Below are positions 22,512 through 37,413 of a stretch of DNA of 64,000 nt, piece by piece. Origin of the DNA: Terriglobia bacterium (GTDB taxonomy: Bacteria; Acidobacteriota; Terriglobia; UBA7540). The notes beneath the pieces are model-generated. The model saw nothing but the letters and a program-made list of their open reading frames with translations. It did no database searches and was not told where the DNA came from. The translations under genes and the position numbers were made by a program. Positions within the stretch are counted from its first letter, which is position 1, and each line of letters starts with the position of its first letter. The stretch is from positions 62,001 through 126,000 of the forward strand of contig DASTAW010000041.1 in assembly GCA_035712365.1 (NCBI GenBank), in the 5' to 3' direction.

Positions 22512-23513
22512 TTAAGCTGCATTCACCAGCAGTCCCGAGACCGTGGCGCCGAACTCATTAAAAATCTGTCCTTCTTCTTCCGTAAGTTTCATTCGGACGG
22601 GCAGGCCGTGCGAAACGACGCTGCCAACCTTCCGTCCCAGTCTCTTTTCAAGGTCAGTGATCCAAGTCCGGGGCACAGCCGGGCGCGCGCAGATCGAGAC
22701 CCGGCTGATTTCGAGCTTGAGGTGGTCAACCGAAGCAGCCAGGGTCCGAGTGGCCTCCTCGGCAACCGCCTCCAACTCGCCGTCCAGTGATTTTCCATGC
22801 ATCGGCTGGTTTCTCCACAGCCGGATTTGCCCGCCTTTGGCGACAACCGCCGTCAGGTAGCTGGGGGAAACGCTCAGCAGCATTTCGCCCCCCTCGGCGT
22901 TTTCGTTGAGCAGGGGCAGCAGCGCCGCCGTGGCCGGCAGCACCAGATTAACATCGCCATTCAGAGTGTTTAGAACGGATTCATACTCCGCCAGCACCGG
23001 CTTGCGCACAGCCATAACCACCGCTTCCAGACCTTCCGGCTCTTTTGGCGCAACCTCGAAGCTGAGGCGGGCCTCTTCCAGCGGAAAGGGCAGCAAAGGC
23101 TTCATCTTCCACCGCACCAGCGACGCCTGCTCCTTGTGGTCGGAGGGCAGCGTCTGAAATTCCAGAATGCTCACGCGCACCGCCGCGTCGGGCAGCAACA
23201 GACCGAATGGCCCCCTCTCCGTGCCGAGAGCGCTTGCCACGCCGCGCGCTTTTCGAGCAACTTCGTCCATCTTCACGAAGTTGGGACGGCCCAGAACAGG
23301 CGCCAGCGCGCCGGCATCGAGCGCTCCCACGGCCACGCTGGCTACCCTGCGGAATGACCTGAAGATACGCGCGCCCAGAATATATTCCGGCTGGAACTCA
23401 AAGACGGTTGCGGGCAGCACAATCTTCCGCTTCGCGGGGGCGCGGAACGGCCTCGGCTTCCCGGCAGGATTTTTTCCAGATAAAAAGTGGCCCAGTGATG
23501 ATTTATTCGACAA
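22512..23513 (-). CDS. PilM-like actin-fold protein of pilus/secretion machinery
   Basis: The 333-residue cytoplasmic protein resembles PilM/GspL (actin-like ATPase fold). It includes GPFGLLLPDAAVRVSILEFQ, a RWKMKPLLPFPLEEA segment matching the PilM stretch preceding the lysis-like lP-f-lee motif, and a C-terminal LVNAA. The first about 50 residues are basic and Pro-rich, which is atypical. The start is TTG 23513, preceded by AAGGT and overlapping the GspE-like gene by 11 bases. PilM recruits PilN at the inner membrane and touches the motor ATPase. The actin-type phosphate motifs are diverged, so ATP binding is uncertain. Confidence 0.7.
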   Translation of the reverse strand: MSNKSSLGHFLSGKNPAGKPRPFRAPAKRKIVLPATVFEFQPEYILGARIFRSFRRVASVAVGALDAGALAPVLGRPNFVKMDEVARKARGVASALGTERGPFGLLLPDAAVRVSILEFQTLPSDHKEQASLVRWKMKPLLPFPLEEARLSFEVAPKEPEGLEAVVMAVRKPVLAEYESVLNTLNGDVNLVLPATAALLPLLNENAEGGEMLLSVSPSYLTAVVAKGGQIRLWRNQPMHGKSLDGELEAVAEEATRTLAASVDHLKLEISRVSICARPAVPRTWITDLEKRLGRKVGSVVSHGLPVRMKLTEEEGQIFNEFGATVSGLLVNAA

Positions 23514-25125
23514 ATGTGACCTTATTGATTTCCTTCAGTGTTGTGACTCCCTGGCGGACCTTGTCGACCGCGGCCTCGCGCAATGTCTTCATACCCTCGT
23601 CGCGGGCCGCCTGGCGGATCTCCGACGACGGGCGCTTATCCAGAATCAGTTCGCGAATCCTGTCCGAAAGCGCCAGAAGCTCTCCAATGGCGGTCCGGCC
23701 GCGGAACCCCGTCTGGCTGCAATGCTGGCAACCTGCTCCTTCGTAGAAAACGACCCCCTGCCAGTTGATGGGATCAATCCCGGACTCTTCAAAAAGCTGG
23801 CGGGGAACTTCAACCGGGCGCTTGCACTGCTCGCAAATCATGCGCAGGAGGCGCTGCGCAAGGATGCAATTGAGCGCCGAAACAAAATTGTAGGGTTCCA
23901 CGCCCATGTTCAAAAACCGGCCCAGTACGTCAACCACGTTGTTAGCGTGGACGGTGGTGAACACCAGGTGCCCGGTCAGGGCCGACTGAATGGCAATCTG
24001 CGCGGTCTCGTTGTCGCGGATTTCGCCTACCATGATCTTGTCCGGGTCGTGCCGCAAAATCGACCTCAGCCCGCGGGCAAAGGTGAGCCCCTTTTTCTCG
24101 TTCACAGGAATCTGGGTGATGCCGCGAATCTGGTATTCGACCGGGTCTTCAATGGTAATGATCTTGTCTTCATCCGTCTTGATTTCCGACACTGCCGCAT
24201 AGAGGGTGGTGGTCTTGCCGCTGCCAGTGGGCCCCGTGACCAGCACCATTCCGTAGGGTTCACGGATGAAACGGCGCAGACGTTTGATCTCGCGGTCCGA
24301 AAAGCCCAGAATGTCCAGACGAAGCTGGCGAAACTTCTCGTGCAGCGATTCCTTGTCGAGAATACGCAGCACAGCGTCCTCGCCGTGGATGGACGGCATG
24401 ATGGAGACGCGGAAGTCAATGGGGCGCCCGCGGTAGCTGACTCTGAAACGGCCATCCTGTGGCACGCGCCTTTCAGCAATATCGAGGTCTGCCATCACCT
24501 TGATGCGGCTGATCACGTTGGACTGATGCTCGTACGACAGTGGATTCATGGCCTGCTGGAGGGCTCCGTCGATGCGGTATTTCACCACCATCGAGTTGTC
24601 ACGGCTCTCGAGGTGGATGTCACTGGCGCGCCGTTCCAGCCCCGCAAAAACAATCGAATCCACCAGCCGGATGACCGGGCTGACGTTGTGCTCGCCGACC
24701 AGTTGCTCAAGCGAAAGATCTTCATGCCCGTTTTCTTCTTCGCGGATGACGTCCAGGCGAAACTCGACAGTGGCCTCGTCCAGTACGCGCTGCGAGGGAT
24801 CGGTTTTGCTGAGGAATTCCCTCACCTGACTGGGAGCCGCCACCTTGACCACGAGCTGGCGGTCCAGCCGCATCGCCAATTCGTCCAGGCGGGCCAGATT
24901 GGAAGGATCGCCCACGGCAATCGAAAGCTCTCCGTTGCGGGCCTCGATCGGCAGGAACTGGTAATCCAACATCACGTCCAGCGGGATAGACCGCAGCACG
25001 TCGGGGTCGGGGCGCAAGTCGCGCAGGTCAACAAACTCGAAGCAGTAACGCTCGGCGGCACGCCGGGCCGTCGCAAGCTCCTCTTCAGGATCGATGACCA
25101 TTCCGGAAAGCGGATTTTCTTCCAT
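23503..25125 (-). CDS. GspE/PilB-family assembly ATPase
   Basis: This is the cytoplasmic motor that powers pseudopilin or pilin assembly. The 540-residue product has an N-terminal GspE-N domain, a Walker A GPTGSGKT with K304, an Asp box (IITIEDPVEY), Walker B-type HDPDKIMVGEIRD and a His box (TGHLVFTTVHAN). A zinc-binding four-cysteine module follows (CEQCKRPVEV...CQHCSQTG). ATG 25125 overlaps the GspF stop as TGATG; a TTG three bases earlier is also in frame. GspE and PilB are close relatives; the neighbouring PilM/N/O-like genes and pseudopilins leave the exact type mixed. Confidence 0.92.
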   Translation of the reverse strand: MEENPLSGMVIDPEEELATARRAAERYCFEFVDLRDLRPDPDVLRSIPLDVMLDYQFLPIEARNGELSIAVGDPSNLARLDELAMRLDRQLVVKVAAPSQVREFLSKTDPSQRVLDEATVEFRLDVIREEENGHEDLSLEQLVGEHNVSPVIRLVDSIVFAGLERRASDIHLESRDNSMVVKYRIDGALQQAMNPLSYEHQSNVISRIKVMADLDIAERRVPQDGRFRVSYRGRPIDFRVSIMPSIHGEDAVLRILDKESLHEKFRQLRLDILGFSDREIKRLRRFIREPYGMVLVTGPTGSGKTTTLYAAVSEIKTDEDKIITIEDPVEYQIRGITQIPVNEKKGLTFARGLRSILRHDPDKIMVGEIRDNETAQIAIQSALTGHLVFTTVHANNVVDVLGRFLNMGVEPYNFVSALNCILAQRLLRMICEQCKRPVEVPRQLFEESGIDPINWQGVVFYEGAGCQHCSQTGFRGRTAIGELLALSDRIRELILDKRPSSEIRQAARDEGMKTLREAAVDKVRQGVTTLKEINKVTFVE

Positions 25126-26330
25126 CAATGCACCTGGGCCGCCAGTGAAAACAGCGGCAAATAAAAGGCAACGAGCACAAACAAGACCACAATCGCGATG
25201 GCAGCGATCATGATGGGATCCACCATGGCCACCAGCGTCGAAAGGTCGATGTTAACGTCTTCTTCAAAAAACTCAGCAACCGACTCCAGCATATTCGAAA
25301 GGGCGCCCGTGGTTTCGCCCACCTCGATCATGTCCAAGGCCATGGGCGGGAAAAAGCCGGTCATGCGGAGGCTTTCACTCAGCGGACGGCCCCCCATCAC
25401 CTCTATTCTAGCCTTCTCTAGCCCTGCTGCCAGCAGGGGACTCGATACGGACCCTGCGGAGTTCTGCAGGGCGGAAACAATGGGAAGTCCGCCCTGCAGC
25501 AAAGTCGAAAGCGTCCGCACGAACTCGGCGACGGAAAATTTGAGGAGCAATTTCCCTGCCACGGGAAGCCGAAACTTCAGCTTGTCCCACTGCAAGCGCG
25601 CCGCATGGGAGCGGCCTGCCGCGCGCAGGGCAAGAATGGCAATCACAATCCCGGCCAGCACAAAGACGCCCATCCGTTTGATGGACAAGCCCAGGCTGAT
25701 GACGAACACGGTCAGGGCCGGCATGGGCACTTGCAGCTCGTTATAGAGCTCAGAAAACCTGGGGATGATGAACGTGTCGATCAGGACGATGAGCCCAGCC
25801 AGAAAGATCAGCAGAAAGACCGGATAGATCAGCGCGGAGATAAACTTCTTGCGGAACGAGCGCGCGGTTTTCTGGTAGGTGACGTACTGGCCCAACACCT
25901 TGTCCAGGGTGCCGCTGCGCTCCCCGGCCCGAAGCGTGGCGCAATAAATCTTGGGGAACTTTCCCACCGACTCGAAGGCTTCCGAGAGCAGGGCCCCGCC
26001 GCGGACCCTTTCCTTCACTTCATCCACCGCCGCCCGAAGACTTTCGCTGCGGCTCTGGCGGGCCAGCATTTCCAGCGATTTTTGCAGCGGCAGGCCTGAC
26101 TTGGAGAGCGTCATGAACTGCTGATTGAAGATCAGCAGGTCATCCTCTTTGATCTTGCCGCGGCGCGGCGGCCCAACCCGCATGCCGAGAATGGATTTGG
26201 GCCGGACGGAAAAAACGTAATATCCCTGCGAGGCCAGCCGTGCGCGCAGTTCCCCTTCGGATGACGCTTCGTGCGTCTCACTGAGGACCTGACCGGCGCC
26301 TGTCGCAATTCTGCAAACGAATTCGCCCAT
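25125..26330 (-). CDS. GspF/PilC-family inner-membrane platform protein
   Basis: The 401-residue polytopic protein is the inner-membrane platform on which the ATPase acts. It has two repeated cytoplasmic GspF domains (for example FNQQFMTLSKSGLPLQKSLE and FVRTLSTLLQGGLPIVSALQ), each with the characteristic G-L-P, and three membrane segments (about residues 165-190, 215-235 and 370-395). The ATG at 26330 is used, after GGTAGG; a TTG at 26339 is in frame. The stop shares bases with the GspE start. Confidence 0.9.
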   Translation of the reverse strand: MGEFVCRIATGAGQVLSETHEASSEGELRARLASQGYYVFSVRPKSILGMRVGPPRRGKIKEDDLLIFNQQFMTLSKSGLPLQKSLEMLARQSRSESLRAAVDEVKERVRGGALLSEAFESVGKFPKIYCATLRAGERSGTLDKVLGQYVTYQKTARSFRKKFISALIYPVFLLIFLAGLIVLIDTFIIPRFSELYNELQVPMPALTVFVISLGLSIKRMGVFVLAGIVIAILALRAAGRSHAARLQWDKLKFRLPVAGKLLLKFSVAEFVRTLSTLLQGGLPIVSALQNSAGSVSSPLLAAGLEKARIEVMGGRPLSESLRMTGFFPPMALDMIEVGETTGALSNMLESVAEFFEEDVNIDLSTLVAMVDPIMIAAIAIVVLFVLVAFYLPLFSLAAQVH

Positions 26331-26332
26331 GC

Positions 26333-26788
26333 CTACCAACTGCTGTACGCGGAGCCATCCAGCGATTCCGCGCTGGATCCGCTGTGAACGTCCACCACGC
26401 CCGGGACTGTCTGTTCCGGGCTCAAAGGAACTTCTTCAACATCAACTTGCCAGGTCTGGTTGGACCCGGTAAAAGGATCCACCGGCAGCCCTCCTCGCAA
26501 ATAGCCGGCCTGCACGAGATCGTCGAGCGATTCCGGCGGCTGGTTCTTGTCCAGCGTGTACTGGTCAATCAGCTTTCGCATCGTGAACAGGTCATCGTGC
26601 AGCACCGTTTCACGGGCGCGGACGATGGCCACCCGATAGCCCGGAGCGGCCATTGCCGCCAGGATCAGGATCAGCACCAGCACGACCATCAGTTCAATGA
26701 GCGTGAAGCCCTTCTTCGCCTCCGCGCCGCCCCGAATGAATGCTGGCGCACGACCGAAAGAACTACCAGTCCGCATAAGGGGTCCCAT
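26333..26788 (-). CDS. Type II secretion/type IV pseudopilin (GspG/H-like)
   Basis: The 151-residue product carries the prepilin cleavage and methylation motif KKGFTLIELMVVLVL, with a leader of about 27 residues, longer than usual. A hydrophobic helix and a small globular region with a DPFTG segment (compare the GspG C-terminal domain) follow. It would be processed by a prepilin peptidase, not found in this window, and inserted into the pseudopilus. It overlaps the upstream pseudopilin gene by 26 bases. A later in-frame ATG at 26776 is possible. Confidence 0.85.
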   Translation of the reverse strand: MGPLMRTGSSFGRAPAFIRGGAEAKKGFTLIELMVVLVLILILAAMAAPGYRVAIVRARETVLHDDLFTMRKLIDQYTLDKNQPPESLDDLVQAGYLRGGLPVDPFTGSNQTWQVDVEEVPLSPEQTVPGVVDVHSGSSAESLDGSAYSSW

Positions 26789-27254
26789 TCATGCCCACTC
26801 CCTGGCTCTTCGAAAAAACGTCAAAAACATCCTGGCCGCCCCAGCTCTGCGAACCCGAGTCGTCCTGCATGGAGCGCATTCCCCAGTCCGCAGTGCCCGT
26901 CATCGGATCAACCGGAATCTTTCTGAGGAATTTATACTTGTCCTTGCTGCCTTTCAAGGGGACGCCCTTGACCAGGGTCTCCAGCGTGGGTGGATAGCCA
27001 AAGGTATCCATTTCCGTGGGGATCATGCCGCTGTCGGCAAAGTCCTTATACCGGTCGATGGCATTCCGCATGGTCCTGAGGTCCTCTTTCAATTCCGCTT
27101 CCTTCTGCCGCCTGACCACAACACCGGCCACAGGCAGAGCGACCGTGGTGAGCAGCAGCATAATCGTCATGGCAGCAATCAACTCCACCAGGGTAAAGCC
27201 CGGGGCGGCGCCCTGCAACTTCAACCGATTTCGAACTGAGCGTACCATTAACAT
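26763..27254 (-). CDS. Type II secretion/type IV pseudopilin (GspG-like)
   Basis: The 163-residue product has the motif APGFTLVELIAAMTIMLLLT, so a leader of about 18 residues is removed after Gly and the Phe is methylated. The C-terminal part KIPVDPMTGTADWGMRSM resembles the GspG major pseudopilin (DPW/DPMTG region). It directly follows the secretin gene, with stop and start sharing one base (TAATG). Two adjacent pseudopilin genes, with a third prepilin-like gene at the operon end, support a pseudopilus. Confidence 0.87.
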   Translation of the reverse strand: MLMVRSVRNRLKLQGAAPGFTLVELIAAMTIMLLLTTVALPVAGVVVRRQKEAELKEDLRTMRNAIDRYKDFADSGMIPTEMDTFGYPPTLETLVKGVPLKGSKDKYKFLRKIPVDPMTGTADWGMRSMQDDSGSQSWGGQDVFDVFSKSQGVGMNGTPYADW

Positions 27255-29059
27255 TACTGCTGCGGTGTCGTTTCCGAAGGCGGAGGTTCAGGGCTGGGCG
27301 AAATGGGCATGGCAGGATGCGCAGGCGCTGAAGTGTTAGGGGTTGATGTAACAGGCTGCGCAGGATTTTGCGTGGCAGCAGATTCCATAGAGGATTCCGG
27401 CAGACGGATAATCCGTGGAGTCAGCATGATCAGCACATCCGTTTGCAGCTTTTCGTGTTTGGTGGAGCTGAACAAGTACTTCAGACCTGGGATCTCGCCG
27501 AGTCCGGGCACGCCCGAAACCGTCGTCGTGTCCGTGGATTGCAGCAAGCCGCCCAGCACACTGGTTTCTCCTTCTTCTAACCGAATATCGTGCTCAATCT
27601 GCCGTTGGCCGAAAGTCGGCTCATTGACGCCGGCGATGCTGACCGACGGCTGCACCGATGAAATCTCAATCTTCGCGTGGATAGCAATCTCGCCGTCGGG
27701 CAGCAGGTGCGGCGTCAGGTCCACGTTGACACCGACGTCCTGAAACTGAAATTGCGTGTTGGTGACCAACCCCCCAAATCCCCCGTTTTGGTTCCCTCCC
27801 GGTGTCACCGCCGTTGGCAAACCGAAGCTGCCGGTGGCGTAGGGTACCCGGCTTCCGATTCGCAGGGTAGCGGTCTCTCCGTCCGTCACGCGAACCTCGG
27901 GATTCTCCATGATGTGGGTTGACGAATCGTTCAGGATAGCCGTGGCAATAGCGCTCGGCACCACCAGTCCATAATTATTTACTCCAAAGTGTCCGCCCAG
28001 CGTGGCCGAACTTCCCGGGGCGAATATCGCCGCGCCCTGGAGCCCATTCGTTATCGAACCCGAGGCAGGGTTGACCGTCGCCGGCGTCAGCCCCAGTTCT
28101 CGCACCCGGTCAGCGTCAGCTTCAAGCACCGTAACGTCCACCATAATCTCGGCCTTGCCGTGGTCCAGGTCGCGGATCAGGTTAACAGCTTCCTCGACTT
28201 TATCAGGTGTGTCGCGGACGATGATGGCGTTGGCGCCTGGATTGTCGATGATCCGCTGAATTCCCAGGATCTGCTTCAAGGCTGTGGTAATCGCCGTCCG
28301 GTCGGCAGGCTTGAGTGAGTTGTCCAGATAGACCGTCCTCATCACTTCAGTTTGATAATCGCGCCGGTTGGCTGGATTGTCAGGAACAACCAGGATGGTG
28401 TTTGAAGTAACCACTCTCCAGAATGTGTGGGTCTGCAGGGCGAGGATGTGCAGAGCGTTCTCGATGGTTACATTGTTGAGGTCCAGTGAAACCGGTTGGA
28501 CCTGAAAATCAGACGTGAAAGCAACATTGAGTCCGGCAAGCTTGCAGAGGGTTTCATAAACCCGCTTGCTGTCGGCGCTGATCCGAAAATGAGTTAATGG
28601 CTCCGCAGGCAGGGGCTTTAATTCATCGCTTGCAGCTTGCTCCTGGCGCTGGCTGGCCTTGATGGCCTCTTTAAGGTCCTTTTCGCGCTCCTGCCTGGCA
28701 GTGATTTGTTTCGACAACAGCCGGGCCAGTTCCTGTTTTGCGGCCTGATTGCTGGGGTCGATGCTGGCGGCCTTCTGGAATTCTCCAATGGCTTCCGGGG
28801 TCCGCTGTTGCTCCAGAAGTTTTCTTCCCCGGTCCAGATGATACTGCGATGCCTCCATGCGTGCATGGGTCTCGCGCAGTTGATACTCGGCGTTCGCTGG
28901 ACGTGATTGCACGGCCCGCTGATAATTGATCAACGCCGTGTCCCAGTCTTTCGTGAGTTCCGCTTTGCGTCCTTTCTGGAAATACACGTTACCAGGTGCA
29001 CAAGCCATGCAAACAAGCAGACCCGTCAGCGCCGATGCTCTTGCCAACCGCCGCTTCAT
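27254..29059 (-). CDS. Secretin (GspD/PilQ-like outer-membrane channel) with N-terminal TPR repeats
   Basis: The 601-residue product begins with a lipoprotein-type signal (LLVCMAC), then TPR-like helices (about residues 35-125) and secretin N-domains (FRISADSKRVYETLCKLAGL, IIDNPGANAIIVRDTPDKV). The secretin beta-barrel domain follows, with VTVLEADADRVRELG and GETSVLGGLLQ...VPGLGEIPGLKYLFSS, the diagnostic secretin signature. A Pro/Ser/Thr-rich tail ends the protein. It would form the ring-shaped outer-membrane channel. ATG 29059 was chosen because GGGGAAG precedes it and the lipobox follows; an upstream start at 29188 is in frame. It is the first gene of the operon. Confidence 0.9.
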   Translation of the reverse strand: MKRRLARASALTGLLVCMACAPGNVYFQKGRKAELTKDWDTALINYQRAVQSRPANAEYQLRETHARMEASQYHLDRGRKLLEQQRTPEAIGEFQKAASIDPSNQAAKQELARLLSKQITARQEREKDLKEAIKASQRQEQAASDELKPLPAEPLTHFRISADSKRVYETLCKLAGLNVAFTSDFQVQPVSLDLNNVTIENALHILALQTHTFWRVVTSNTILVVPDNPANRRDYQTEVMRTVYLDNSLKPADRTAITTALKQILGIQRIIDNPGANAIIVRDTPDKVEEAVNLIRDLDHGKAEIMVDVTVLEADADRVRELGLTPATVNPASGSITNGLQGAAIFAPGSSATLGGHFGVNNYGLVVPSAIATAILNDSSTHIMENPEVRVTDGETATLRIGSRVPYATGSFGLPTAVTPGGNQNGGFGGLVTNTQFQFQDVGVNVDLTPHLLPDGEIAIHAKIEISSVQPSVSIAGVNEPTFGQRQIEHDIRLEEGETSVLGGLLQSTDTTTVSGVPGLGEIPGLKYLFSSTKHEKLQTDVLIMLTPRIIRLPESSMESAATQNPAQPVTSTPNTSAPAHPAMPISPSPEPPPSETTPQQ

Positions 29060-29241
29060 GAACACTTCCCCACGGGCATCCCAATCATAGGTAGAGTGTA
29101 TTATCCGCGAAGTAGTTGTCTGAAGCAAGTGAACTGACGCAAAACCCGCCTTATGGACAGGTTTCGAAGGAATTAACCAGTTAGGCAACAGATCGTGCTA
29201 GAATTGTGGCTTGGGCACAACAAAGACATAAGGAGGTCGAA

Positions 29242-30280: not shown

Positions 30281-30724
30281 ATGGCGAGCAAGAGTAAGAA
30301 GCTAAAATTTGGAATCGGGATAGCGATTATCCTAGCCGCGGTGGGCTGGGAGGCAGTGTCCGGGTTCCAACAGTCCAAGACGTATTACGTGACCGTCAAG
30401 GAGCTGACCAGCGGCAAATCTGCGCACCAGCACGTGCGTGTGGGGGGCGTTATCGTGCCCGGCTCGATCCACCGGAGCGGGCAGATCCTGACCTTCCGCA
30501 TCTCCCAGGAAGCCCTGTCGCTCCCTATCACCTATGTTGGCACGGATGCCTTGCCGGACGATTTCAAGGGTGGGGCCAATGCAATTGTCGAAGGGGATTA
30601 CCAGGCAGACGGCACGTTCCGAGCACAACAGGTCCAGGCGAAGTGCGCTTCCAAATACCAGGCTGCGCCTGCGGCGCCGAAGGAGGCGAACTCGGCATCC
30701 AAAGTAGCTTCCTACGGTGAATGA
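30281..30724 (+). CDS. ccmE: Cytochrome c maturation protein CcmE, cysteine (CxxxY) variant
   Basis: CcmE is the membrane-anchored periplasmic heme chaperone that receives heme from CcmC and passes it to CcmF. The 147-residue product has one N-terminal membrane helix (about residues 10-26), followed by the OB-fold (HVRVGGVIVPGSI, YVGTDALPDDFKGG, AIVEGDYQADGTFRAQQV). The usual heme-binding HxxxY is replaced by C122-A-S-K-Y126 in QAKCASKY. Cysteine-type CcmE proteins have been described in Desulfovibrio and archaea. ATG 30281 was chosen because the helix starts there; an in-frame ATG at 30188 exists. It is the first gene of the operon. Confidence 0.9.
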   Translation: MASKSKKLKFGIGIAIILAAVGWEAVSGFQQSKTYYVTVKELTSGKSAHQHVRVGGVIVPGSIHRSGQILTFRISQEALSLPITYVGTDALPDDFKGGANAIVEGDYQADGTFRAQQVQAKCASKYQAAPAAPKEANSASKVASYGE

Positions 30725-30816: not shown

Positions 30817-32841
30817 ATGAATCAAGTCGGAGCTGTCGGACTTATCGCCGCACTGGTATTTGCAATCTACGGGATGATCTCTGGCGCCATCGCCGGAAAA
30901 TTTCGAAGTCCTCGAATGCTGAAGAGCGCGCAGCGCGCCGTGCTGGGCTTTTTTGCAATGACCACGCTGGCAGTGGTCTCCCTCGAGTACCTTGCGCTCA
31001 CGAACGACTTCCACAACTCCTACGTCGCATCCCACTCCAGCCTCGCACTCCCCCTGGTCTATAAGATTCCTGTTCTGTGGGCGGGGCAGCAAGGCTCGCT
31101 GCTGTTCTGGACCTGGCTGCTCTCGATTTATGTCGCGCTGGCCGTCCTGCTGAACCGCAAGAAGAACCGGCAGTTGATGCCTTACATCATCGCCATCTGC
31201 ATGGGCGTGGGAACATTCTTCTCTCTGATCACATTCTGGGTTGCAAACCCCTTCGATCAGCTTTCGCTGGCAACAGCAACAGGCATTACACCCTATGCGC
31301 CCCCGGATGGAAACGGCATGGCTCCATCCCTGCAATACCATTCGATGGTGATACACCCGCCGATGCTTTATCTCGGTTACGTCGGGATGGCCATCCCGTT
31401 TGCCTTTGCCATGTCGGCGCTGCTGACGAAACAACTGGGTGACAACTGGATTCGCGTTACCCGCCGCTGGGTCATGGTGCCCTGGATGTTCCTGGGCACC
31501 GGCATCGTGCTGGGCGGACATTGGGCCTACCACGTACTCGGCTGGGGCGGATACTGGGCCTGGGACCCGGTGGAAAACGCCTCGCTGCTGCCGTGGTTGG
31601 CGGGCACAGCGTTTCTCCATTCGGTCATGATTCAGGAAAAGCGCGGCATGCTGAAAGTCTGGAACGTGGTCCTGATCATCCTGACTTTCTTCCTGTCCAT
31701 CTTTGGAACGTTCCTGACCCGCAGCGGCATCATCTCTTCCGTCCACGCATTCGCGCAGTCCAATATAGGCCCATGGTTCTCCGTATTTCTAGCCATCATC
31801 GCGGCGTTTTCGCTGACGGCGCTTTTCCTGCGCCTGGACTTCCTGAAAACCGAGAACCGGCTGGACTCTGTCGCCTCGCGCGAAAGCGGATTCCTGTTTA
31901 ACAACTGGATCTTGCTGGCCGCCGTGCTTGCGGTGCTATGGGGCACTATCTTTCCGATCGTCTCCAAAGCCATTCAGGGCGTCACCGTGACCGTCGGACC
32001 GCCTTTCTTCAACAAGGTGATGGTCCCTATCGGATTGCTGCTGTTGTTCCTGACGGGTGCCGGACCGCTGCTGGCCTGGAGGAAAACCTCGTTCCAGAGC
32101 ATCAAGCGCAATTTCACCGTTCCCCTGATTTTTGCGGCCATAGTGGGCGGAATCCTGTTTTTCGCGGGCGTTCATCGCCTCTACACGTGGATGTCTCTCT
32201 TCCTGTGCGCTTTTGTTGCCGCAAGCATCGTCGGCGAGTTTTACAAAGGCGCCCGCACGCGAATGAAATCCACTCGGGAGAATTTTTTTGCCTCCGTCTA
32301 CAACCTGACCATGCGGAACACGCGCCGTTACGGCGGATACATCGTCCACTTCGGCATCGTTTTAATCTTTGTGGGGTTCGCCGGACAGGCCTTCCGGTTT
32401 GAAACGCAGGGGCTGATGGGCCCCGGTGATCTGTTGAGGGCAAAGGATTATCTGCTCCGGTGTGAAAGCATCGACACCGGTCAGAAGGCAAACTACCAAT
32501 ATGAGACCGTTGCGTTGAGTGTGACGAAAGACGGGCACGCCTTGACCGTGATGCATCCGCAAAAACGCTTCTTCCTTGCGGAGCAGGAATCGCTCAGCCA
32601 TGTTGCGTTGCATTCCACCCTGGCGCAGGACCTTTACGTTGTCATGGCGGGCCAGGACCCGGGTTCGGACAAGGCTATCATCCACGTCATCATCAACCCT
32701 CTGGTGCAGTGGGTGTGGATAGGCGGCATCATCGTCCTTCTGGGGACCCTGTTGGCCCTGGTACCGAGCAGCATTGAACGCCAAATGGCCGATCTCCACA
32801 AAGGTCGGGAGGAACTTGCCGAAGCGCATCATGTCAGCTAA
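30817..32841 (+). CDS. ccmF: Cytochrome c maturation heme lyase CcmF
   Basis: CcmF takes heme from CcmE and attaches it to apocytochrome c in the periplasm. The 674-residue polytopic protein carries the heme-handling WWD domain as WGGYWAWDPVENAS near residues 244-258, conserved histidines (HSMVIHPPMLYLGY, GGHWAYHVLG) and about 15 predicted membrane segments. Length and motifs are typical. The stop overlaps the ccmH start (ATGTCAGCTAA), which supports translational coupling. Confidence 0.94.
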   Translation: MNQVGAVGLIAALVFAIYGMISGAIAGKFRSPRMLKSAQRAVLGFFAMTTLAVVSLEYLALTNDFHNSYVASHSSLALPLVYKIPVLWAGQQGSLLFWTWLLSIYVALAVLLNRKKNRQLMPYIIAICMGVGTFFSLITFWVANPFDQLSLATATGITPYAPPDGNGMAPSLQYHSMVIHPPMLYLGYVGMAIPFAFAMSALLTKQLGDNWIRVTRRWVMVPWMFLGTGIVLGGHWAYHVLGWGGYWAWDPVENASLLPWLAGTAFLHSVMIQEKRGMLKVWNVVLIILTFFLSIFGTFLTRSGIISSVHAFAQSNIGPWFSVFLAIIAAFSLTALFLRLDFLKTENRLDSVASRESGFLFNNWILLAAVLAVLWGTIFPIVSKAIQGVTVTVGPPFFNKVMVPIGLLLLFLTGAGPLLAWRKTSFQSIKRNFTVPLIFAAIVGGILFFAGVHRLYTWMSLFLCAFVAASIVGEFYKGARTRMKSTRENFFASVYNLTMRNTRRYGGYIVHFGIVLIFVGFAGQAFRFETQGLMGPGDLLRAKDYLLRCESIDTGQKANYQYETVALSVTKDGHALTVMHPQKRFFLAEQESLSHVALHSTLAQDLYVVMAGQDPGSDKAIIHVIINPLVQWVWIGGIIVLLGTLLALVPSSIERQMADLHKGREELAEAHHVS

Positions 32842-33310
32842 GCGGCTTGTGAAAATTCTTGTGCTGAGTTTCGCTCTGGTCAATGTGGCCATGGCCGCTC
32901 AGAGCTCTGCGGACATTGAGAAGGGCATCGGGGACCAGGTTTACTGCATGTGTGGCGGGTGCGTCACCAGCCTGAACACTTGCCCTATGCAGTTTTGCGA
33001 AGTGAAGGAGGGAATGCACTCAATCATACGGGCGGATCTGGAGCAAGGCAAGACAGAGCCGGAGATCCTCCAGGACCTTGTCAACCGCTACGGAGAAAAG
33101 GTGCTGGCAGCTCCGCCCGCGCGCGGCTTTAATCTGGCGGCATGGCTCCTTCCGGGCGTAGGACTCCTGATTGGCCTGTTTCTGGCCATCACCGTTGTCC
33201 GAAGATGGCGCAGGCCGGCGGCCGAGGCAGCGGCTCCGGCGGGAGCGCCTCCAGTGGATGAAAACATCCTTAGCGCAGTTGAAGAGGAAATGAAGAAGTA
33301 CGCCGACTGA
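32831..33310 (+). CDS. ccmH: CcmH-like thiol protein with CxCxxC motif
   Basis: CcmH normally holds apocytochrome c thiols reduced, through an LRCxxC motif. The 159-residue product has a signal or anchor helix (about residues 5-22), then C39-M-C41-G-G-C44, with extra cysteines C51 and C56, and a second membrane helix near 108-130. The EPEILQDLVNRYGEKVLAAP segment matches the CcmH family. The overlapping CxCxxC arrangement with two more cysteines differs from the canonical motif. ATG 32831 overlaps the ccmF stop. A single domain is present; the C-terminal CcmI part is a separate gene here. Confidence 0.85.
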   Translation: MSAKRLVKILVLSFALVNVAMAAQSSADIEKGIGDQVYCMCGGCVTSLNTCPMQFCEVKEGMHSIIRADLEQGKTEPEILQDLVNRYGEKVLAAPPARGFNLAAWLLPGVGLLIGLFLAITVVRRWRRPAAEAAAPAGAPPVDENILSAVEEEMKKYAD

Positions 33311-33352: not shown

Positions 33353-33805
33353 GTGGAATTGGGAGTTGCAATCCTGCTAGTGATCGGCCTGGCCGTGTTT
33401 ACGGTCACGCCTTTGCTTGCTCCAGACGGCCCCTCCGAAGACGCCTTGCCCATCGATGTCACACCGCTCGCCGACTTGAAACGCCGCCGGATGGTGGTCT
33501 ATGAAAACATCAAGGACCTGGAGTTTGAATATAAGGCCGGAAAAGTTTCGAACGAGGATTACAACACCCTCCGGGAAAATCACCTGGCTGAAGCCGCACA
33601 GTTGATGCTGGCTTCTCAGGAGCAGGAAGAAATCACGGAACACGATCTGATGATCGAGAGGCAGGTTGCGGAGCGGCGCGCACAGAAGAAGGCTCGGCAT
33701 CCGGACCCCTACGTCTGCCCTGAATGCGAGTTCGAAAACCCGCTGCCGGTGAAATTCTGCGGGAACTGCGGCAAAGAACTCCCCAAGCGGACTCGTGGAA
33801 AGTAG
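33353..33805 (+). CDS. CcmI-like protein with zinc ribbon
   Basis: The 150-residue product has an N-terminal membrane helix (about residues 3-22), a helical region with DLEFEYKAGKVSNEDY (about residues 56-71), and a C-terminal zinc ribbon (CPEC...CGNC). The helical part with the preceding helix recalls CcmI and SHOCT-like hairpins. Position after ccmH supports a CcmI-like role in presenting apocytochrome, but the zinc ribbon is not part of classical CcmI. Start is GTG 33353 after a GAAGG ribosome site. Function is inferred from context. Confidence 0.65.
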   Translation: MELGVAILLVIGLAVFTVTPLLAPDGPSEDALPIDVTPLADLKRRRMVVYENIKDLEFEYKAGKVSNEDYNTLRENHLAEAAQLMLASQEQEEITEHDLMIERQVAERRAQKKARHPDPYVCPECEFENPLPVKFCGNCGKELPKRTRGK

Positions 33806-33863
33806 GCGGGCCCGAATTGCCGGTTCGTCCCCGGCGCCTTGCAGAGTGGAATCCTTGCACAAA

Positions 33864-35114
33864 ATGAAAAGAAGAACGACATTTACTGGCCTGATGGTCC
33901 TGGCAGTACTCTGCGTGCTTTCAAGTGCTTCCATCCCATGTTTCGCCGTCAGGATTCAGGGGCAGGTCTCGAACGGCACAACCCAGCGGCCGCTGGCGCG
34001 CCAGAAGGTGCAGATGATCAGCCCGCGAGGCGGCATGGCTGTGGTGGGTGAAGCCACCACCGACGCAACCGGCCATTTTGCAATCGACGACAGTCAGCTT
34101 GGCGCCAACGGGTTTTATCTGATTCAGGCGACCTTCCAGGGCGTGGACTACCACGCGCCGGTGCAGTTCGGTCCCAACGGAGATGCAGTCGTCAACATTA
34201 CGGCCTATGAATCTACCGGCAAAGAACCTGAGCTTCGAATCCATTCCGCGCGTGTTATTGTTCGCGCGGAAGGCCCGCAGGCGCACATTCAGGAACTCTA
34301 TGCGGTCGATAACCCGGCCCGGAAAGCTTATACAAATTCCAAGGGGACCTTCAGGTTCCACATCGCACCCGGGGTGGGCAGCCCGACCGTTGCCGCCGTC
34401 GGGTTGATGAACATGCCCCTGCCCCAGAACCCTGAGAAGGGGAAGCAGCCAGGCGATTTCTATATCACTTACGCCTTGAAGCCGGGCAGGAATGTGATAA
34501 TGGTGGCGTATGATGCGGATTACGGTGGGAAGCAGCTTAATCTGGATGACAGCGTTGCGTATCCAATTGCGCAGATGCAGCTCTTTGTGGTTCCCGCTAC
34601 CCTGACCGTAAACTCCAAGCTGTTCACTGCCGCCGGCCAGGATTCCGAGACTGGCGCGCAGATCTATGAAGCGAGCGATTTGAAGGCCAGCTCCGCGTTC
34701 GCAGCACAACTGGCCGGAGAACCCGCAGCGGGCACTGAGGAGGCCGCCGCCGACCAGCCGCAGCAACAAACCCAGGTCAAGACCGTTCCAGATTCGATTA
34801 CGTCGGTAGGCGTCCCTCTCCTGCTCTGCTTCTTGCTGGTCTTATTGTGGGCGCTGGGAATTCGAGCATCCAAGGAATGGCCCCGCTGGAAAGCCAGGCA
34901 ACAGGGCAGTCCTGTACAGAAGCAGTTTCGAGCCAGGTTGGACACTTTGATAAACTCCATTGCGGATCTCGACGAACTGTATGCCTCCGGCAAAGTACCG
35001 GAAAAGCAATACTGGAAGGAACGCCTGGAACTGAAAGCGAAGGCAGTGGCTATCCTGAAAGCAGGACCTTCCGCGAAATCCAAGCCTTATGTCTCCCGGG
35101 GATCACGTCAATAA
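33864..35114 (+). CDS. Exported protein with carboxypeptidase-regulatory domain, C-terminal membrane helix and CcmI-like hairpin
   Basis: The 416-residue product has a signal peptide, then a carboxypeptidase-regulatory/Ig-like beta domain (VRIQGQVSNGTTQRPL...GHFAID), a longer beta region (about residues 110-270), a Gln/Ala/Glu-rich linker, and a membrane helix near residues 315-340. The cytoplasmic tail has DLDELYASGKVPEKQY, strikingly like DLEFEYKAGKVSNEDY of the preceding CcmI-like protein. The gene is unknown in classical ccm operons. Its stop overlaps the ccmA start by 26 bases, so it belongs to the operon. Start ATG 33864 follows GAGTGGAA. A role in cytochrome c maturation is inferred only from position. 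Confidence 0.7.
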   Translation: MKRRTTFTGLMVLAVLCVLSSASIPCFAVRIQGQVSNGTTQRPLARQKVQMISPRGGMAVVGEATTDATGHFAIDDSQLGANGFYLIQATFQGVDYHAPVQFGPNGDAVVNITAYESTGKEPELRIHSARVIVRAEGPQAHIQELYAVDNPARKAYTNSKGTFRFHIAPGVGSPTVAAVGLMNMPLPQNPEKGKQPGDFYITYALKPGRNVIMVAYDADYGGKQLNLDDSVAYPIAQMQLFVVPATLTVNSKLFTAAGQDSETGAQIYEASDLKASSAFAAQLAGEPAAGTEEAAADQPQQQTQVKTVPDSITSVGVPLLLCFLLVLLWALGIRASKEWPRWKARQQGSPVQKQFRARLDTLINSIADLDELYASGKVPEKQYWKERLELKAKAVAILKAGPSAKSKPYVSRGSRQ

Positions 35115-35823
35115 GCCGGCGCTGGAAGTCCGCAACGTTACGAAGTTCTTTGGCGACCTTGCTGCCCTGAAGGAAGTCACACTGGGCATCCGTTGCGGCG
35201 AGTCATCTCTGCTTTACGGCCCGAATGGCGCAGGCAAAACCACTCTTCTGCGCATGCTGGCCTCACTCGCGCGACCCAGTTCCGGCGAGGTCCTCTTTGC
35301 CGGCAAAAACATCGAGCATGACGGAGCAGGCGCCAAAGCGGCGATCGGATTTGTTTCGCATGCCACGTTTCTTTATGGAGAGCTGACGGTCCGTGAAAAC
35401 CTGAGGTTTTTTGGAAGGCTGTTCAGTTTGAGCGATCTTGAAAAGCGCATTGACGCTGCGCTCGAGATATTTGACATGCGGCCGCGTGAGAATGTTTTTG
35501 CTCGAGATCTTTCTCGCGGGCTGCAGCAGCGGGCATCGTTGGCGCGCGCCTTTCTCCACGACCCGGACTTTGTTATTCTCGACGAACCGTTCACGGGCCT
35601 GGATCATGAGTCGGTGAAGAAGCTCGAGGAGCTGCTTCTGCGCCTGCCGGAACAGGGGAAGGCCCTGCTTTTTTCCACACACGATTTCGAGCAGGGGGCC
35701 GCGCTGGCTACACGTCTGATATCGCTCAAGGCGGGCCGCGTTCGCTATAACGGCCCTCTCGGCGAAGCGCCGTTCAAGGCCCTTGGGATCATGCGGGCCA
35801 GCGGGCCGGGTGGCGATGAATAG
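35089..35823 (+). CDS. ccmA: Cytochrome c maturation ABC ATPase CcmA
   Basis: CcmA is the ATPase of the CcmABCD complex that releases holo-CcmE. The 244-residue product has Walker A GPNGAGKTT near residues 44-52, the ABC signature DLSRGLQQRASLARAFLHDP with Walker B FVILDEPFTGLD, and an H-loop STHDFEQG. Motifs are intact. The start overlaps the preceding gene; the stop overlaps the ccmB start (GATGAATAG). The sequence fits CcmA best because of its position beside ccmB and ccmC. Confidence 0.92.
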   Translation: MSPGDHVNKPALEVRNVTKFFGDLAALKEVTLGIRCGESSLLYGPNGAGKTTLLRMLASLARPSSGEVLFAGKNIEHDGAGAKAAIGFVSHATFLYGELTVRENLRFFGRLFSLSDLEKRIDAALEIFDMRPRENVFARDLSRGLQQRASLARAFLHDPDFVILDEPFTGLDHESVKKLEELLLRLPEQGKALLFSTHDFEQGAALATRLISLKAGRVRYNGPLGEAPFKALGIMRASGPGGDE

Positions 35824-36493
35824 CCTGACCATCATCTGGAGTATTGTGCTCAAAGACCTTCGCGTGGAGTGGAGAAACCGTGAGACTCTGGCCTCCATGT
35901 GCGTTTTTGGCCTGCTCATCATCTTCCTTTTCAATTTTGCTTTTGAAACCGCGCGCGAAGAGACGCTGCGGTTGCTGCCAGCCGTGCTGTGGGTGGCGAT
36001 TGCCTTTGCGGGAGTGCTGGGGTTTAACCGGTCGTTCGCTTCGGAGCGCGAAAACTCCTGCCTGGAAGGCATGACGCTGGCCCCTGTAGACCCCAGCATG
36101 ATTTTCGTGGGCAAGATGCTGGCCAACCTGCTTTTCCTGGGGATTGCCGAAGTGGTGATGGCGTTCGCAGCCACTCTATGGTTCAACTTTTCTTTTTTGC
36201 CGGCCCTCGGCCAGTTGCTGCTGATTGCTTTCTTCGGGACGCTGGGCTACGCGGCGCTCGGGACCATCTTTGGGGCCATCGCAGCCAACACGCGCATGCG
36301 TGAAGTGATGCTGACCGTGCTCCAGTTTCCCGTCGCTTTCTGGATTCTGATGCTTTCCATCGACTCGACCAGCAGCGCCATGCGCGGTGATCCGGGCGGC
36401 AACTGGGTTGGCGGCGTGGCCAGAGTGGCAGGCATCAGCGTGGTCTTCACGGTTGCCTCATTCCTGCTTTTTGAATACGTTCTGGAGGAGTAG
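35816..36493 (+). CDS. ccmB: Cytochrome c maturation membrane protein CcmB
   Basis: The 225-residue protein has about six membrane helices and the CcmB-like segments VLKDLRVEWRNRETL near the start and VLQFPVAFWIL. CcmB is the membrane partner of CcmA. ATG 35816 overlaps ccmA by eight bases; an upstream in-frame GTG at 35810 is also possible. The 48-base gap to ccmC still suggests one transcript. Confidence 0.88.
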   Translation: MNSLTIIWSIVLKDLRVEWRNRETLASMCVFGLLIIFLFNFAFETAREETLRLLPAVLWVAIAFAGVLGFNRSFASERENSCLEGMTLAPVDPSMIFVGKMLANLLFLGIAEVVMAFAATLWFNFSFLPALGQLLLIAFFGTLGYAALGTIFGAIAANTRMREVMLTVLQFPVAFWILMLSIDSTSSAMRGDPGGNWVGGVARVAGISVVFTVASFLLFEYVLEE

Positions 36494-36541: not shown

Positions 36542-37240
36542 ATGATCAGAAAATTTCCATTGCGTCTGCATTCCGCGCTCACATTTGCAGGCCTGGTTGT
36601 GGCGCTCTACATGATCTTTCTCTATGCCCCGGAAGAAATGACCATGGGAGAAGTGCAGAGGATCTTCTATATTCACGTTCCCGCGGCCTGGGTATCTTTG
36701 ATGGGATTCTCGATTATTTTCGTAGCCAGCATCGTCTACCTGTGGAAGCGCGCCCAGTTTGCGGATGAATTGGCCCATGCCACGGCTGAAGTGGGATTCA
36801 TATTCTGCACCTGCGTGCTGGTGACCGGTCCGTTGTGGGCCAAGCCGGCCTGGGGCATCTGGTGGACGTGGGATCCGCGTCTGACATTGACTTTCCTTCT
36901 CTGGCTGCTCTATGTGGCTTACCTAATGCTGAGAAGTTATCTGGTCAACCCCGGGCGGGCGGCCAACCTTTGCGCCGTGGTGGGGATTATCGGTTTCGTG
37001 GACGTGCTCATCGATTATATGGCCATCCGGTGGTGGCGGACGCAGCACCCACAGCCGGTTATTCTGGGTGGGCCCGGGTCAGGACTGGATCCCCGCATGC
37101 TGGCCACTCTCCTGGTTAGCTTAGGAACATTTACGCTTCTGTTCTTTCTGCTGGTCCGCATTCGCCTGGGCCTGGCGGGGTTACGAAGGGAGCTCAGCGA
37201 GATTCGCCGCACTCTGGCTTTTAGAACTTCGGAGGATTAG
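36542..37240 (+). CDS. ccmC: Heme exporter/handling protein CcmC
   Basis: CcmC binds heme through its WWD domain and loads it onto CcmE. The 232-residue protein has about six membrane helices, the WWD domain WGIWWTWDPRLT near residues 104-115, and conserved histidines in FYIHVPAAW and HATAEVG. A longer basic C-terminal tail is present (LRRELSEIRRTLAFR). It starts with ATG 36542 and is followed by ccmD within 3 bases. Confidence 0.92.
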   Translation: MIRKFPLRLHSALTFAGLVVALYMIFLYAPEEMTMGEVQRIFYIHVPAAWVSLMGFSIIFVASIVYLWKRAQFADELAHATAEVGFIFCTCVLVTGPLWAKPAWGIWWTWDPRLTLTFLLWLLYVAYLMLRSYLVNPGRAANLCAVVGIIGFVDVLIDYMAIRWWRTQHPQPVILGGPGSGLDPRMLATLLVSLGTFTLLFFLLVRIRLGLAGLRRELSEIRRTLAFRTSED

Positions 37241-37242
37241 CC

Positions 37243-37413
37243 GTGGTTAACAAATACCTCTTTCTGGCATATGCGTTTGTCTGGCTGATTTTCATGCTGT
37301 ACGCGTGGAACCTGAGCCGGCGGCAGGATCGCCTGAAAAGAGAGCTGGACGAAGTGAAGAACAAGGTTGCCGAATCCACTCCCGCTGCCGCCTCAGGGAA
37401 TTCAACTTCCTGA
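37243..37413 (+). CDS. ccmD: CcmD-like small membrane protein
   Basis: This 56-residue protein begins with GTG at 37243, after GGAGGATTAGCC. It has a single membrane helix (KYLFLAYAFVWLIFMLYAWN) followed by a basic amphipathic helix (LSRRQDRLKRELDEVKNK). This topology and position directly after ccmC match CcmD, which stabilises CcmABC and aids release of holo-CcmE. It is easily missed by gene finders because of its size and GTG start. Confidence 0.8.
   Translation: MVNKYLFLAYAFVWLIFMLYAWNLSRRQDRLKRELDEVKNKVAESTPAAASGNSTS

Follow-up and report, generated by a model that had tools for sequence, protein, structure and literature searches.

The work of Allen in 2006 and of Goddard in 2010 reportedly dealt with the System I* of Desulfovibrio. 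System I*, the Cys-type Ccm system for the maturation of cytochrome c, has been described from 2006 onwards for archaea and Desulfovibrio and later for Chloroflexi and Firmicutes, as far as the accessible part of the source goes (PMC3601427). While CcmH was absent in the original description, the available text states that CcmH is kept in approximately one third of System I* bacteria and that its absence is not characteristic (PMC3601427, 2011 review). In the species tested, the Cys and His residues of the two CcmE groups were not interchangeable, and features of both groups that are uncharacterised so far are regarded as likely to matter together with interactions with partner proteins (accessible sections of PMC9084895). 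In literature searches that left most subscription papers uncovered, nothing on point was found for CcmE from Acidobacteriota, and no published account was found of cytochrome c maturation with ccmF in this phylum or of a CcmI protein with a zinc ribbon; a search combining CcmH, CcmE and a CxC motif brought up only work on cytochrome oxidase assembly among the partly accessible sources.

The window, i.e., the whole stretch of 64,000 nucleotides analysed here, contains a ccm operon in the order ccmE-F-H-Z-K-A-B-C-D, all genes of which lie on the forward strand. The first gene, ccmE (positions 30281–30724), runs from an ATG at 30281 to a stop codon ending at 30724 and encodes a heme chaperone of the Cys type with 147 amino acids, matching the Pfam family PF03100 (CcmE) over residues 34–128 with 82.5 bits at a cut-off of 24.6. 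Residues 122–126 read CASKY and thus conform to CxxxY and not to the canonical HxxxY. In an alignment with 13 relatives, ten of the Cys and three of the His type, the heme-attachment column is occupied by Cys122 (TGC, 30644–30646), and Lys121 as well as Tyr126 (codon 30656–30658) are invariant; the matching residue of Escherichia coli CcmE is His130. A structure predicted with AlphaFold from an alignment of 35 sequences (mean pLDDT 87.8) consists of an N-terminal membrane helix and a beta-strand domain, and Foldseek placed CcmE structures at ranks 1, 2, 3 and 5 in the PDB (8ce8, 1lm0 and 1sr3, with 1j6q at rank 5). The preliminary description of this DNA had placed Cys122 at the heme-attachment position within an otherwise normal OB-fold; the first part is borne out by the codon and the alignment column, and the second holds in view of the model and of the CcmE structures that make up three of its four best matches.

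The gene for the heme lyase subunit, ccmF (30817–32841), matches PF16327 and PF01578. Among 149 Cys-type and 84 His-type rows of the CcmF alignment, His268 and His310 are present throughout and His180 in all except one row with a gap. For ccmH (32831–33310; PF03918, 60.3 bits) we chose the ATG at 32831 as the start, the open reading frame itself opening with a TTG at 32774. Its product carries the motif YCMCGGCV (CxCxxC) in place of the canonical [RK]CxxC[QEKM]; Cys39 and Cys44, which delimit CMCGGC (codons 32945–32962), align with the canonical CxxC pair, and the nearest structure to the predicted fold is that of CcmH (2hl7), a weak match with an E value of 0.037. The next gene, termed Z (33353–33805), encodes a homolog of the N-terminus of CcmI (hhalign, 97.2%, E = 3.8e-11) ending in a putative zinc ribbon, the matches for which score below the Pfam cut-offs. 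No TPR family was matched in Z in a scan in which the CcmI protein of locus L079 did match TPR; in canonical System I, a TPR-type CcmI stands next to CcmH. It is followed by K (33795–35114), a protein with a CarboxypepD_reg domain (PF13620, 37.1 bits, cut-off 32.3), by the ABC ATPase gene ccmA (35089–35823; PF00005 and TIGR01189, the latter with 133.3 bits at a cut-off of 131.6), by ccmB (35783–36493; PF03379, 101.3 bits, with TIGR01190 below its cut-off), by ccmC (36542–37240; PF01578, and TIGR01191 with 148.6 bits, below the cut-off of 186) and by a ccmD-like gene for 56 amino acids with a GTG start (37243–37413; TIGR04391, 38.3 bits, cut-off 24). Upstream of ccmE, on the reverse strand (23503–29188), lie genes that resemble, as judged by eye from the translated reading frames, a set for type II secretion or for a pilus, with an ATPase, an inner-membrane protein, two pseudopilins and a secretin.

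The genome from which the window stems comprises 4.67 Mb on 65 contigs with a completeness of 98.9% and a contamination of 2.1%. It yielded one match for CcmE and one for CcmH, both in the window, as well as one protein of the DsbD/CcdA type and 21 matches for the cytochrome c domain PF13442, 19 of these above cut-off, and no match for ResB/CcsB of System II (PF05140). Given the single CcmE, the single CcmH, the lack of a ResB match and the completeness of the assembly, the operon is the sole route of cytochrome c maturation detected in this genome. A second CcmE of the HxxxY type, which would have spoken against the preliminary description, was not found. With CcmABC and CcmF present, a cysteine at the attachment position and no His-type CcmE elsewhere, the operon very probably represents System I*, with heme passing from CcmC to Cys122 of CcmE, on to CcmF and finally to apocytochrome c; the presence of CcmH departs from the original description. 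The complete ccmA-B-C-D-F set and the modified CcmH that had been noted earlier are thus confirmed, and so is their combination with a Cys-type CcmE. The proposal of a variant System I in this phylum stands in these elements and not in its novelty, since System I* is already known and the window adds a further example and not a new system.

With regard to the distribution of the Cys type, CcmE occurs in 186 of 297 genomes of the window's phylum. A comparison across the Acidobacteriota had been suggested in the preliminary description, and the ligand was read in 121 of the 186 genomes, selected largely as single representatives of their genera, with the top-scoring genomes added: 105 have cysteine only, 15 histidine only and one has both, and the resulting 106/121 for cysteine is therefore not the estimate of a random sample. 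CPSKY is found in 82 and CASKY in 20 of the 121 genomes, and all 12 other genomes read from the window's own class have the Cys type with CASKY. Among the genomes read, the Cys-type CcmE is accordingly the common form in this phylum. In a MAG of 83% completeness (G069), CcmE is encoded on two contigs (L129 and L130), once as the Cys and once as the His type, which may reflect contamination. Locus L099 stems from a MAG with the title Deltaproteobacteria, which the tree tool labels Myxococcota; of 118 genomes in its phylum, 18 have a CcmE, 16 being of the Cys type, one of the His type and one with an interrupted frame. An in-frame TAA interrupts the CcmE of a Deltaproteobacteria-titled MAG (L099, L266), and CPSKYE is still encoded behind it. 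In the Chloroflexota, the phylum of L033, 90 of 121 genomes contain CcmE, and 19 of 20 genomes (20 loci out of the 90 CcmE-bearing genomes) have the Cys type. Among 80 named loci, 71, with titles mostly from Pseudomonadota, are of the His type, eight are of the Cys type and one is interrupted. Two Chloroflexota loci (G426:C1:12166-12933 and G439:C101:180-947; L275 and L276) contain two neighboring CcmE genes each, CPSKY being accompanied by CPHSY or CPHRY, and CcmE on a haloarchaeal plasmid (L356, 5685–6140) reads VRAHEGEH where CxxxY or HxxxY would be expected.

CcmH differs widely among the organisms with a Cys-type CcmE. In the 105 genomes of the phylum with cysteine only, 59 have a CcmH of the CxC type (pattern C-x-C-[GPSE]..C), seven have only an APCC type, 28 have none detected, meaning no PF03918 match in the whole genome, and 11 are unread, three of these with an unread PF03918 match and eight undetermined. 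One member of the CxC group, G289, was placed there by eye on account of RLNCDCGCK at the position of the motif, with RCPVCQ further downstream. Canonical [RK]CxxC[QEKM] is present in 10 of the 15 genomes with histidine only, the other five being undetermined; it does not occur among the 66 genomes of the phylum that combine a Cys-type CcmE with a read CcmH motif. Incompleteness does not explain the missing CcmH, because 26 of the 57 genomes of at least 90% completeness lack a match and 31 have one. Outside the phylum other motifs occur, e.g., LKCPVCK next to a Cys-type CcmE in a member of the Dadabacteria (L085), CPVCP in the Dehalococcoidia genome of L080 and CQCGCG, CLCGCN or CYACPGE in loci from the phylum of L099, while two CcmH proteins encoded in Cys-type operons on Bacillota plasmids (L355, 4812–5312; L359, 4809–5306) keep the scaffold and have neither CxxC nor CxC (PPGCTDSMTADYC). 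The question raised earlier, whether the Cys variant always occurs together with a CxCxxC CcmH, is answered in the negative by the 28 genomes of 105 without CcmH, the seven with APCC and the motifs found outside the phylum, and strict pairing is rejected; the association is a tendency that is strongest in the window's phylum. The CcmH-like proteins with vicinal APCC are encoded away from the ccmE region (L314-L318, L322, L339).

CcmF and CcmH share one open reading frame at 22 loci from 21 genomes (L050 and L254 belong to the same genome), all of the Cys type. Such frames span about 825–975 residues from stop to stop in L180-L183, L190, L191, L226, L227, L229 and L232, and the same holds for L233, L235, L237, L050 and L297, likewise from Cys-type systems. 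The fusion of L050, a MAG titled Acidimicrobiia, groups in the tree of CcmF with rows from the phylum of the window, pointing to mis-binning or transfer. A match for Z is present in 52 of 71 Cys-type regions with ccmF (the window counted), 24 of the 52 with a zinc ribbon, and in one of 12 His-type regions with ccmF. On the Metabacillus plasmid the order is E-F-H-Z-(gene at the place of K)-A-B-C-D, and that of Cytobacillus is the same through C; the gene at the place of K is matched to K by position alone, and the Z proteins of both plasmids have 116 residues and no zinc ribbon.

To compare the partner proteins of the two CcmE types, alignment columns with a consensus above 75% within each type were collected from 159 CcmC and 233 CcmF loci. 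One column of CcmC fully separates the types, i.e., the residue after the invariant histidine of loop 5, and no such column exists in CcmF. In the window the pair is His169-Pro170 (codons 37046–37051), equivalent to His184-Gln185 of E. coli. Proline follows the histidine in 92 of 92 loci with a Cys-type and glutamine in 80 of 80 loci with a His-type CcmE, these 172 loci being those with a readable CcmE type, some of which repeat a genome (85 + 76 distinct sequences). CcmC of L099, which falls outside this count on account of its interrupted CcmE frame, also has proline. The rule was set as a prediction in advance for the 20 Chloroflexota genomes and, with the best CcmC match taken from each, proline was found in 19 of the 19 Cys genomes, one of which (G443) keeps the proline while the loop-5 histidine itself reads serine; the sole His genome has glutamine, with a sequence already contained in the first set. 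The plasmids of Metabacillus and Cytobacillus combine cysteine with proline, and those of Pseudonocardia, Xanthomonas, Methylophaga, Sphingomonas and Caballeronia histidine with glutamine. Three CcmC copies from haloarchaeal plasmids (L356, 7962–8708; L357, 7938–8630; L360, 7884–8546) read RLHA or TFHE in place of His-Pro or His-Gln and are outside both classes; they are possibly a third type. We found no mention of CcmC Gln185, looked for mainly in the spelling Q185, in the literature searched, which is weak evidence of absence with subscription papers mostly uncovered, and the link between this signature and the type of CcmE is apparently unreported.

The simplest history is that System I divided once, long ago, into two lineages, the genes of which have since moved mostly as blocks. 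This history has a bearing on the meaning of the linked signatures, since one ancient division into Cys and His lineages suffices to explain them without functional coupling. By this reasoning, the Pro/Gln difference in CcmC and the differences in the CcmH motif would be neutral relics of a single old split of the operon and would play no part in the exchange of the ligand, an explanation to which we give a slight preference. It agrees with the CcmC tree (FastTree, 201 columns, the Pro/Gln column among them), in which all Cys/Pro loci fall on one side and all His/Gln loci on the other with a local support of 98, and with the many forms that the CcmH motif takes in Cys-lineage members of other phyla. 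In two CcmF trees the His rows fall into two groups; a tree that holds all His rows together is nevertheless not rejected (AU 0.575) and has a slightly better score. Repeated independent switches of ligand and partner were considered and are not supported, as at most one independent pair formed (counted on a CcmC tree of a partial set with 32 Cys rows read) and the CcmF tree with one split is not rejected. Against neutrality speak the singularity of column 170 in CcmC, the only one to separate the types fully at the chosen consensus with none in CcmF, and its location: in the E. coli complex His60 and His184 are the heme ligands of CcmC, and CcmE is modelled over the very loop that bears His184 (PMC10457321, accessible part), next to which the Pro/Gln position lies.

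Functional coupling of the CcmC and CcmH signatures to the ligand swap is compatible with a single old split and plausible, and we conjecture that the proline or glutamine beside the heme ligand tunes the site of CcmC to its acceptor, a thiol or an imidazole. A more far-reaching proposal, which we put forward tentatively and regard as possible rather than probable, is that System I exists as two coherent machines, one for each type of CcmE, that do not exchange parts, that residue 185 of CcmC (E. coli numbering, Pro/Gln) helps to decide which chaperone is loaded, and that CcmH of the Cys machine has been freed from the canonical redox motif, becoming a multi-cysteine protein in the window's phylum, and is joined by a small CcmI-like subunit, often with a zinc ribbon. 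What the Pro/Gln rule offers is a single swappable residue beside the heme ligand, with the differences in CcmH and CcmI as further candidates.

In System I* as assigned here, CcmC would pass heme to CcmE, where Cys122 would hold it instead of the textbook histidine, by analogy with Desulfovibrio and Methanosarcina, and Tyr126 is the likely axial ligand; CcmE would then carry the heme to CcmF for attachment to apocytochrome c, an order taken over from published work, and CcmH with its CxCxxC motif and the CcmI-like Z probably assist CcmF. The nature of the bond is a separate matter. Covalent attachment is not assured, because CcmE of D. vulgaris was reported to bind heme non-covalently in NMR work (PMC3884852, accessible part). 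The stability of a thioether bond makes the release of heme hard to explain (PMC3601427, likewise). Both observations fit purely non-covalent binding to the window's CcmE through the thiolate of the cysteine and the tyrosine, with heme released without a covalent bond being made or broken. We nevertheless consider such a mode rather unlikely in view of the accessible reports that the Desulfovibrio protein bound heme covalently when its operon was expressed in E. coli (PMC3601427) and that CcmE of Methanosarcina acetivorans is positive in heme staining and requires its cysteine for heme attachment (PMC9084895). That the cysteine is a sequencing or assembly error masking a histidine and an ordinary System I has a negligible probability: a single read error is excluded because TGC would need two substitutions to become CAT or CAC (CAY), the cysteine is kept in related genomes, as the counts of CASKY and CPSKY given above for the 121 genomes of the phylum illustrate, and the Cys type is also evident in the window's CcmC and CcmH.

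Compared with known systems, the operon of the window shares CcmA, B, C, D, E, F and H and the overall pathway with canonical System I from E. coli and other Proteobacteria, and differs from that of E. coli in having CASKY instead of HDENY in CcmE, His-Pro instead of His184-Gln185 in CcmC, a CxCxxC instead of a [RK]CxxC-type CcmH and a CcmI-like protein with a zinc ribbon instead of a TPR-type CcmI. The archaeal Ccm system of M. acetivorans likewise has a Cys-type CcmE, the cysteine of which is needed there for heme attachment, whereas according to the accessible text it is devoid of CcmD, CcmH and CcmI, its CcmF is split in two and its genes do not form one operon (PMC9084895). System I* of Desulfovibrio also has cysteine in place of the histidine of CcmE, with CPSKY as the commonest motif both there and in the genomes studied here; as far as the available part of the source shows, CcmH and CcmG are missing from the operon of Desulfovibrio, whereas that of the window includes CcmH with a CxCxxC motif (PMC3601427).
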